Source: a virus. Taken from it: 36,201 nt of DNA. Numbering within the stretch: the stretch's first letter is position 1; each line of letters opens with the position of its first letter. Location: IMG/VR virus record IMGVR_UViG_3300042525_000084, positions 1 to 36,201 of that record. One strand, 5' to 3'. The position numbers and the translations under genes are program-made. Below are positions 33,031 to 36,201 of this stretch, piece by piece. The notes beneath the pieces are model-generated. The model saw only the letters and a list, made by a program, of their open reading frames with translations, made no database searches and was not told the DNA's origin.

Positions 33031-33056
33031 AAACTCCATAAATATTTATGGAGTTT
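33031..33056. promoter_or_regulatory. 26-bp perfect palindrome (operator and/or SD-sequestering hairpin)
   Basis: The half-site AAACTCCATAAAT is followed directly by its exact reverse complement, centred between 33043 and 33044. The right arm contains GGAG, the SD of the nuclease gene starting at 33059, and the left arm contains CTCC, so an RNA copy would hide that SD. It also sits just upstream of the leftward promoter. It fits a dimeric repressor operator or an RNA switch. Confidence 0.8.
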
Positions 33057-33058
33057 TG

Positions 33059-33346
33059 ATGCGACGCGCAGCCAGGGTTGATGAAAATCAAGGACTTATC
33101 GTCAAGGCGTTACGTGCGTGTGGTGCGACGGTACGGATCATCACGCAGGGTGATGGCATACCTGATCTGTTGGTTGGGTACCGAGGCCATACGATCTTGA
33201 TGGAAGTGAAGGACGGGAATAAGCCACCTTCGGCGAGACAGCTCACCACGGCAGAGCAGATCTTCTTTGATCAGTGGACTGGCGGAAAGTTATTTATCGT
33301 GAACAGCGTAGAAGAAGCGCTTGATGTATTGAAGGATTGCCGATAG
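33059..33346 (+). CDS. VRR-NUC domain nuclease, 95 aa
   Basis: ATG 33059 has GGAG seven bases upstream. The product shows the compact VRR-NUC arrangement of the PD-(D/E)XK superfamily: an N-terminal helix with E9, GIPDLLVGYRG with D36, MEVK with E49 and K51, and a following Q61 in SARQLTTAEQIFFDQW. Phage stand-alone VRR-NUC proteins are structure-specific nucleases thought to act on branched or flapped DNA. It is transcribed away from the recombination operon and is followed by a terminator. Its SD lies in a perfect palindrome, which suggests tight control. TTG 33056 is a less likely start. Confidence 0.88.
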   Translation: MRRAARVDENQGLIVKALRACGATVRIITQGDGIPDLLVGYRGHTILMEVKDGNKPPSARQLTTAEQIFFDQWTGGKLFIVNSVEEALDVLKDCR

Positions 33347-33386: not shown

Positions 33387-33414
33387 TGCCCCTTGCAATG
33401 AGGGGCATTTTTTT
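33387..33414 (+). terminator. Rho-independent terminator
   Basis: TGCCCCT (33387-33393) pairs with AGGGGCA (33401-33407) around a 7-base loop, followed by seven T. It ends the VRR-NUC transcript and separates it from the RNA region to the right. Confidence 0.88.
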
Positions 33415-33422
33415 GATATAGT
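33393..33422 (+). promoter_or_regulatory. Extended -10 promoter in front of the structured RNA
   Basis: TGA immediately precedes TATAGT (33417-33422), giving an extended -10 element with a 5/6 hexamer. TTGCAA (33393-33398, in the terminator loop) lies 18 bases upstream as a 4/6 -35. The predicted start, 33428-33430, coincides with the first base pairs of the first RNA hairpin. Confidence 0.55.
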
Positions 33423-33427
33423 CATCT

Positions 33428-34026
33428 GGTCGGTGTGGCAACCGGCAGCGAGTGAAGGAACCCCAGATTATTTAGGTGGGGCTTGTGTGGTCACAATGTC
33501 TTTCTTCACTCAGACTGCGTGATTGCCCAACGCCAAGGGCCATGCCCCTCCTAAGTATTCTGGGGTTTTGCTTTTGGTGGCCGATCTTGCAAGAGTCTAT
33601 CGGGAAAGGCTTCAGACCGAGGGTAGGTAGCAAGTAACCGTACTGCGTCATGGCATCGGCGAACGTGGAGTCCCCAAGGAGCAGAGCCACAACAGTTTCT
33701 GGCTTGCAAGTATCCGCCGCACAGAAGTCTCCCAAAGCGGCCCACAGGGAGGCGTGTCGTAAAGGTTAGCTGCCTTGGATGGCGAGACCAATCCGATCCT
33801 TCATTGAGACGGTACACGGTTGTGAGAATAGCGATGCCCGCCGGATGTGTGTTAGGGAAAGCCATGTGTCGCATGGCTTAATCCGGTGGATAGGTTACGT
33901 CAGCGACTGAACGTAGCCCCTGTCGAGGCGAACGAAACGACCGACGAGCAGGTAAGCCTGGCTGAATTGGGAACACCGATTCAGTTAGGCAAGCTTTTGT
34001 CTCCGCTTCACTCACTCTCTCGGAGC
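33428..34026 (+). ncRNA. Candidate large structured non-coding RNA, ~600 nt
   Basis: No credible gene lies here, yet helices can be paired by hand along its length. Main ones: 33429-33434/33441-33446; 33450-33457/33504-33511 closing a three-way junction with 33461-33465/33477-33481 and 33483-33487/33492-33496; 33531-33540/33570-33579 with 33544-33548/33562-33566 inside; 33581-33585/33599-33603; 33630-33636/33641-33646; 33657-33661/33715-33719; 33727-33733/33747-33753; 33777-33782/33788-33794; 33838-33846/33881-33889 enclosing 33859-33866/33872-33879; 33893-33903/33907-33918; 33919-33925/33945-33952; 33956-33970/33976-33990 (15 bp, 3 G-U); 34001-34005/34021-34025. Loop bases 33550-33557 can pair with 33469-33476 as a kissing loop. 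Four 60-base lines counted by hand are 52-62% G+C, higher than the flanks. Size and phage setting recall GOLLD and ROOL RNAs; identity is not established. Confidence 0.7.
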
Positions 34027-34031
34027 AGGTA

Positions 34032-34235
34032 ATGAAATACTACTATTTCAAGAAACCCAGTTCAGCGGCTCATATCTGGTTAGTTGATGACACGGCGTGT
34101 CGTATGTACTCGACTGGCGGCATAAGAAAAACCGGCAAGGTATACGATCACCCTGCCGGTCGGCGTATATGTCAAATGTGTAGTCGAGCAGAACCTGAAA
34201 AGGTAGAACTGCGAGATGCAACGATTTACTTGTGA
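34032..34235 (+). CDS. Small Cys/His protein, putative zinc binder, 67 aa
   Basis: ATG 34032 has CGGAG six bases upstream, in the last stem of the RNA region. The product begins MKYYYFKKPSSAAHIWLVDD and has H14, C23 and a C47-x2-C50 pair in GRRICQMCS, spaced so that a zinc site is possible. The rest is basic. Similar short proteins with a terminal RRxCxxC occur in phages without known function. It is the only gene downstream of the RNA on the same strand. Its 3' end overlaps the convergent gene by ten bases. Confidence 0.65.
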   Translation: MKYYYFKKPSSAAHIWLVDDTACRMYSTGGIRKTGKVYDHPAGRRICQMCSRAEPEKVELRDATIYL

Positions 34236-34435
34236 TGATCAATAAATTCGTCAAGGCCTGAGCCGGTCAGGACATAAGCGGCGTCGTTATATTCCACAGT
34301 GATTAGCTGTTTTCTTAGCCACTCGTATCGTTTGAGTTGGTGTTCTAGTTCTTCAAGTCTTACTGCTGCTCGCTTCGCTACAGCGGCGTCGGCCCAGGGT
34401 CCGTTAATCCCCTTTAGCTGGTCGATCAAGTTCAT
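34226..34435 (-). CDS. Small coiled-coil protein, 69 aa
   Basis: ATG 34435 has AGGA upstream and lies inside the end of the previous gene. The product (MNLIDQLKGINGPWADAAVA..., RLEELEHQLKRYEWLRKQL) is helical with a heptad-like middle and a short polar end. It is the last gene of the second leftward operon and meets the + strand Cys/His gene tail to tail with no visible terminator. The family is unknown to me. Confidence 0.6.
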   Translation of the reverse strand: MNLIDQLKGINGPWADAAVAKRAAVRLEELEHQLKRYEWLRKQLITVEYNDAAYVLTGSGLDEFIDHHK

Positions 34436-35672: not shown

Positions 35673-35998
35673 TTCTCACTCCTTGCTCGGATTGCTTGCG
35701 CGGCCACCTTTGTAATGTCTGACGCATATTCAGGATGTACAGCAAGCACATCACACACCTTCGCACACGCCTCACGCTCTTGCTCACGAACCTGCCAATC
35801 AAGCTCTTGCAGCAGTTCTTCAATCGTGTCGCCATGTCCCGTTGCGTAGCCCCTTGCTATCATCCATGCAGCAACCTTCTCACGCTCTGCTGCTGCGACA
35901 AGGGCGGCGAAGCGTGTTACAGAATTTAATGGCTTTTCGTCAGATCCGTAAGCTAGTCCAGCCTCCCGCGCCATGCGGATTATTTCTTCTCTATCCAT
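35669..35998 (-). CDS. Conserved early phage protein, 109 aa
   Basis: ATG 35998 follows GGGGAAGAATT. The start MDREEIIRMAREAGLAYGSD, the RFAALVAAAEREKVAAWM block and the terminal EREACAKVCDVLAVHPEY...AAQAIRARSEK are typical of a very common family of small phage proteins, often duplicated within one genome, with no established function. It is helical and acidic. Its stop overlaps the next start (ATGA). Confidence 0.72.
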   Translation of the reverse strand: MDREEIIRMAREAGLAYGSDEKPLNSVTRFAALVAAAEREKVAAWMIARGYATGHGDTIEELLQELDWQVREQEREACAKVCDVLAVHPEYASDITKVAAQAIRARSEK

Positions 35999-36201
35999 AA
36001 TTCTTCCCCTTCTTTGTTACTCCATTCTTGCCACCTTGCTGCGATGAGATCTGACAAATGTTTAAGCAGCGATTGATCTGAATCAGATAAATCATCTATA
36101 CCTGCGTACTCAAACAGCAAGTTCCATATAGCTTCGCGCTCATGCTCGGCAACAAGATATGCAAAGTATTCAAGCTGATAAAAAGCATGAACAACCCCGT
36201 T
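35980..36201 (-). CDS. C-terminal 73 residues of an early phage protein (cut by window)
   Basis: The reverse frame is open from the window edge to TAA at 35980-35982 and carries the SD of the next gene in its last codons. It reads NGVVHAFYQLEYFAYLVAEH, then AIWNLLFEYAGIDDLSDSDQ and a Trp-containing helical end. The start lies outside the window. The overlap of 19 bases and helical composition match its neighbours. Function is unknown. Confidence 0.62.
   Translation of the reverse strand, partial: NGVVHAFYQLEYFAYLVAEHEREAIWNLLFEYAGIDDLSDSDQSLLKHLSDLIAARWQEWSNKEGEELWIEKK

Follow-up and report, generated by a model that had tools for sequence, protein, structure and literature searches.

Loci of the type III toxin-antitoxin class exemplified by ToxIN are laid out as a promoter, a short RNA, a terminator and then a product made by read-through. 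The ToxIN RNA has been described as forming a pseudoknot (PMC5772629). GOLLD and ROOL, structured non-coding RNAs of large size, are found in phages and prophages, often near tRNA genes (PMC12286853). The phage locus analysed here resembles ToxIN in that a promoter, a short RNA with a predicted pseudoknot and a terminator precede a product that would be made by read-through, yet there are no tandem RNA repeats and a long structured RNA follows rather than a toxin gene. The long RNAs of the locus are, like GOLLD and ROOL, large, structured, phage-borne and sometimes beside tRNA genes, but module B, the long RNA of the present locus, is shorter (350-440 nt vs about 600-800 nt for GOLLD and ROOL), is preceded by an autonomous pseudoknotted terminator module, is exchanged as a cassette, often lies beside an HNH gene and has no Rfam match. 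A structured RNA directly 5' of a gene for an HNH-type protein also recalls HEARO and the omega-RNAs of IscB and IsrB, whereas the partner protein here is a small phage homing-type HNH without RuvC, no guide was found and HEARO gave no match. With group I introns that carry HNH homing endonucleases, and with GIR1, the locus has in common the size class, a homing-nuclease neighbour and, in two of its RNA families (B2 and C2), a P3-P7-P8-like strand order; unlike them, the long RNA is intergenic and follows a terminator, with no exons, no P4-P6 domain and no Rfam match. No published description of such a locus was found in the open-access literature searched, many journals and preprints lying outside its coverage.

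The locus lies in a 36,201-bp virus record from IMG/VR (IMGVR_UViG_3300042525_000084, hereafter the window), which encodes phage virion genes, an Erf-like recombinase, an exonuclease and a sigma-factor-like gene. Coordinates without a locus label refer to the window, and the features described are on its plus strand. A sequence-only reading had singled out positions 33428-34026 as a gene-free stretch of raised G+C that folds as a single RNA of about 600 nt, possibly GOLLD, ROOL or a new class. The structured, gene-free stretch is real and its boundaries were well chosen: 33,428 falls close to the expected start of the module A transcript, 7 nt past the -10 box, and conserved module B runs to 34,026. 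The G+C content does rise, to 0.55-0.56 compared with about 0.43-0.50 nearby, and the plus strand folds better than its dinucleotide shuffles (z -4.2, 0/20), whereas the minus strand shows no clear excess (z -1.7). No tRNA was detected within 33,428-34,026, and a protein gene was rejected for both strands; in close relatives a 107-aa minus-strand ORF has substitutions at all codon positions, and no frame matching it was present in distant relatives. Taken separately, modules A and B have fold z-scores of -4.6 and -2.1, the latter being modest evidence, so that it is the comparison of relatives, not single-sequence energy, that proves B.

Homologous loci were anchored on the gene upstream, a VRR-NUC or Holliday-junction-resolvase-like gene at 33056-33346 (PHROG 93 endonuclease, E 5.8e-10), and 80 viral loci were kept. 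A near-perfect palindrome, AAACTCCATAAATATTTATGGAGTTT, lies just 5' of this gene at 33031-33056 and is also present in the relative L002. Further along the window (35,733-36,012), and downstream in L085 and L089, there are short repeats and several similar small ORFs (M.REDIIRMAREAG...), which suggests duplicated small genes.

Comparison of these loci by BLAST and nhmmer indicates a two-part structured RNA locus rather than one RNA of about 600 nt: one set of loci matches module A only (to ~33,577) and another module B only (33,588-34,026), and the same class of A is found with different long RNAs, as is the converse. In the fold of the window, a predicted helix closes A onto the 3' end of B, pairing GAGUGAAG at 33450-33457 with CUUCACUC at 34006-34013. 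This helix is not conserved; it is lost in relative L003, in which the 5' strand becomes GAAACAAG and changes together with its true partner inside A. Since the pairing that covaries is the one between leader and loop within A, the helix joining A to the 3' end of B is a coincidence of the window sequence. A single 600-nt molecule was therefore rejected, on the differing distributions of A and B and the lack of conservation of the closing helix. The proposal of a large structured phage RNA, perhaps of a new class, thus holds for module B and fails for the 600 nt as one RNA, which is better read as two independently inherited modules.

Module A (33429-33577) is predicted, from its fold, homologues and alignment, to be a short RNA of about 150 nt whose intrinsic terminator has a loop that pairs with the 5' leader. 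A sigma-70-like promoter (TTGCAA-18-TATAGT, 33393-33422) matches by sequence in front of it and overlaps the terminator of the VRR-NUC gene; promoter-like matches of at least 10/12 occur upstream of 45/96 homologous cassettes, against 4/96 shuffles. The terminator consists of a G+C-rich stem (5' strand 33460-33482, 3' strand 33544-33565) and a U-rich tail, UUUUGCUUUU at 33566-33575, the 3' strand and tail together spanning 33544-33575, and the same arrangement of hairpin and U-tract is found in the homologues. The predicted pseudoknot joins GAGUGAAG (33450-33457) to CUUCACUC within the terminator loop (33504-33511), and the two strands covary, being GAAACAAG/CTTGTTTC in L003, GCTAAGG/CCTTAGC in L002 and TGACAGAAAT/ATTTCTGTCA in L185. 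The 42 distinct A elements compared were picked by a hairpin search and inspected by eye; in 38 of them leader and loop can form an uninterrupted run of 7 or more Watson-Crick pairs, in 34 different sequences, a length reached in 8.6% of non-cognate leader/loop combinations. Only Watson-Crick pairs were counted in this test, an earlier version that allowed G-U pairs having had a background too high for use.

Module B (33588-34026), on the evidence of nhmmer and covariation across its relatives, is a conserved structured RNA of about 440 nt. Its relatives, gathered by motif scans, an HNH protein search and iterative nhmmer, fall into family B1, to which the window belongs (16 distinct loci, about 430-440 nt), and family B2 (about 25 members, about 350 nt); the two families share the sequence motif UCUAUCGGG as well as both outermost helices. 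In B1, 26/58 pairs changed on both sides, with 96.3% of cells paired and slid controls reaching at most 8, and in B2, 52/72 pairs did so, with 92.6% of cells paired and slid controls at most 27; these counts are to be read against the slid controls and not as probabilities, because the structures were derived from the same alignments and the sequences are related. In the window, compensatory changes support helix P1 (33588-33593 with 33703-33708; 3/6 pairs), helix P2 (33608-33612 with 33684-33688; 3/5) and a hairpin at 33716-33741 (33716-33720/33737-33741; 3/5). Hairpins that fit those of the sequence-only reading were supported as well: both tiers of the two-tier hairpin (33838-33889) covary (33838-33846/33881-33889, 6/9 pairs; 33862-33865/33873-33876, 3/4), as does the basal part of the 11-bp hairpin with a bulge (33893-33899/33912-33918, spanning 33893-33918; 4/7), and the continuous 15-bp hairpin at 33956-33990 is replaced in relatives by a hairpin of different sequence. 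Of two outcomes named beforehand as telling against the sequence-only reading, homologues that keep a protein frame and helices lacking compensatory changes, neither was found when the relatives were checked. In B2, two crossing helices (163-166/229-232 and 221-227/264-270) have compensatory changes in 10/11 pairs, so the pseudoknot of B2 is real; this group I-like P3-P7-P8 crossing order, which covaries in B2 and C2, was not found in B1, and there is no P4-P6 domain. At its conserved 3' edge, module B of the window carries GGAG (34022-34025), a likely Shine-Dalgarno sequence of the next ORF, and in homologues it is placed likewise before HNH. In one large group of B2 loci (L039-L045, L067, L186), a hairpin and then a T run close the RNA and there is no attached ORF, an argument for an independent role of the RNA.

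Downstream of module A there is almost always a large structured RNA, drawn from at least seven sequence families, or fewer if these are module-mixing relatives, as may be the case because several share 5' pieces. Long RNAs other than B include C1 (L002, L004, L058, L005), C2 (L051, L049, L065) and C3 (L031), and two more, C4 and C5, follow A upstream of HNH genes. Alignments of C1 to C5, small sets of 4 to 14 sequences, gave better folds than their column-shuffled versions (z -8.4, -7.7, -7.8, -5.7 and -3.8), and a pseudoknot that covaries in C2 follows the strand order seen in B2. None of these families that were scanned exceeded an Rfam cut-off. Exchange is seen between the window and L002, whose flanks share 94.4% identity across 1,789 bp on one side and 93.7% across 1,451 bp on the other and whose sequences are wholly different between 33,577 and 34,239. 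This is a clean cassette swap, B1 against C1: the exchangeable cassette of the window (33578-34238) holds B and a 67-aa ORF, in place of which L002 carries a C1 RNA. No truly empty cassette site was seen among the relatives compared.

Other RNA-like elements occur near these units. A hairpin element, GGGTTAGCGCC ... CACTGCTTYATGTGAGC, lies beside or between A and B (L008 6930-7040, L026, L084, L044, L012, L020, L028) and Rfam gave it no identity where it was scanned; a conserved inverted motif, CAACACGCATGGGG ... CCCCAGCCGTGTTGG, is found in the same RNA-rich island (L008 6370-6460, L028 1460-1540). Directly 5' of the A-B unit there are tRNA genes in L008 (6603-6768; Pro, His) and L006 (2624-3045; Met, Pro, Asn).

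An HNH gene lies downstream of the long RNA in 50/98 distinct cassettes, a figure biased by one locus fetch that used HNH, and is missing from 48/98; among B1 loci it is present in 10/16. The HNH protein of L092 belongs to PF01844 (E 3e-9) and is of the phage homing type, and scans of the HNH protein returned no other domain, RuvC included. Half of the cassettes (50/98) thus encode an HNH protein within the element, as an HNH homing cassette does, but the window's own does not; in place of the gene it has the 67-aa ORF (34032-34235), which is conserved in L003, L085 and L089 and matched nothing in Pfam or PHROG. Relatives of the HNH protein in Pantoea phage LIET2 and two Microcystis phages lie in ordinary gene runs.

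Among named phages, Myovirus ctsTn925 (MW202426.1, an environmental sample) carries both A and B2. At L193 3849-4258 (MW202426.1 7572-7981), GenBank 'hypothetical proteins' UOF76796.1 and UOF76797.1 have been annotated beside and inside the B2 RNA; these are probably not genes. The cultured Vibrio phages 2.095.A and 1.178.O have the same layout, a promoter, an A-type element and, after an interval of a few hundred bases, an HNH gene, with leader and loop matching by eye over 7 bases in 2.095.A (GTGGTGA/TCACCAC) and 8 bases in 1.178.O (GTGAGATG/CATCTCAC). In the cultured Sulfitobacter phage phiGT1 (L204 1263-1905) the gene order is likewise VRR-NUC, a 640-nt gap and HNH; the gap includes a short C2-like piece but folds no better than shuffles and was left unassigned. 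Searches of phage DNA with the whole stretch and of plasmid DNA with module B gave no match, the conserved B1 motif was absent from GTDB genomes, and phage DSL-LC04, which shares 85% identity in a single virion protein, lacks B. The B2 motif was hit in four genome contigs, where only ~25 nt matched, and these were judged to be chance.

The window had no match to any Rfam 15 model at the gathering cut-off (cmscan), the stretch had none at E<=10, GOLLD, ROOL and the group I intron included (a sub-threshold RyhB hit lies upstream, outside it), and 18 homologous loci (E<=1 to 3) gave nothing above the gathering cut-off and no group I intron match. The suggestion of GOLLD (RF02032) or ROOL (RF03087) accordingly found no support, there being no covariance-model match to either in the window or the 18 loci. 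It could still be argued that A and B form one large ornate RNA of this type, with A as a 5' domain and possibly as a multimer, since A and B are always adjacent and the size class, phage location and nearby tRNA genes (L008, L006) are similar; this is improbable, as a U-tract terminates A, which combines freely with long RNAs unrelated to one another, relatives do not keep the helix predicted between A and B, and Rfam gave no match. Decay of a former gene, or a fold arisen by chance, for which one could cite the 107-aa minus-strand ORF and the modest fold energy of B alone (z -2.1), is hardly credible and already contradicted by the compensatory changes in both modules and the unconserved ORF frame.

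The gene that follows the RNA invites three other explanations. B may be a long structured 5' leader acting in cis on whichever gene comes next, HNH or, in the window, the 67-aa ORF, as a riboswitch or translational control element, and the likely ribosome-binding site in its conserved 3' end, with a start codon within a few bases, speaks for this; such a role nonetheless seems unlikely, given that 48/98 cassettes have no HNH gene downstream, that the B2 group ending in a hairpin and T run has no ORF attached, that B is kept while the following gene changes and that 440 nt is large for such an element. The position directly before a homing-type nuclease gene, and the covarying pseudoknot of B2 and C2 with its group I P3-P7-P8 strand order, would also fit a new ribozyme that processes itself and matures the HNH mRNA in the manner of GIR1, the lariat-capping ribozyme found before a homing-endonuclease gene. 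We regard this as quite unlikely: the family models of the group I intron (RF00028), GIR1 and other Rfam ribozymes were not matched, so that membership of the former two, considered for the pseudoknot order and the HNH gene, was not supported, and there is no P4-P6 domain, no cleavage or splice site was identified and half of the cassettes have no HNH gene. By analogy with the omega-RNA of IscB and IsrB, the long RNA might instead be the guide or scaffold of an RNA-guided HNH nuclease, the gene order of a structured RNA directly 5' of an HNH protein being the same; this is very improbable, because an HNH domain of the phage homing type (PF01844) is all that scans of the protein revealed, with no RuvC match, no guide-like variable end was found, many cassettes have no HNH gene and HEARO was not matched. 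Assignment to HEARO or omega-RNA found no support, as Rfam gave no hit and the partner protein scans as HNH only.

It seems to us reasonably probable that the stretch is a mobile phage RNA cassette, a two-part non-coding locus that is transcribed when polymerase reads through a pseudoknotted terminator. This rests on computational observations: the division into two modules, the conserved base pairs of each, their reassortment and the clean swap of the cassette. A sigma-70-type promoter would direct synthesis of the short RNA A as far as an intrinsic terminator, the loop of which is paired to the 5' leader, and polymerases that pass this terminator would make the long structured RNA, B in the window. 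As little as ~12 nt separates the U-tract of A from B, and no promoter fits there (window, L010, L092); it is therefore most likely that B is made by read-through. Module A would most likely set, in this way, the proportion of short RNA to both long RNA and nuclease mRNA. The cassette, B included, is exchanged among phages at one fixed site, and in about half of the loci sampled it also includes an HNH gene with its likely ribosome-binding site at the 3' edge of the long RNA. Given the HNH family and the cassette swap, the enzyme probably spreads the cassette by homing. The long RNA itself most likely acts as a folded RNA, and a folded, possibly catalytic, molecule is favoured by its pseudoknotted core and wide conservation.

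More tentatively, the locus may represent an undescribed and widespread system in which a promoter and a tunable pseudoknotted terminator, module A, dock at least seven exchangeable families of large RNA, each functional or catalytic and travelling with HNH, perhaps as an RNA-protein partnership. Taken alone, the RNA is a new family among large structured phage RNAs, and the arrangement is one for which we found no precedent.

In summary, our results add RNA families with clear compensatory changes, absent from Rfam 15, that substitute for one another at a single site downstream of a common control module. The role of large phage RNAs thereby becomes testable, as the module is open to deletion, exchange and probing and the layout recurs in cultured Vibrio phages.
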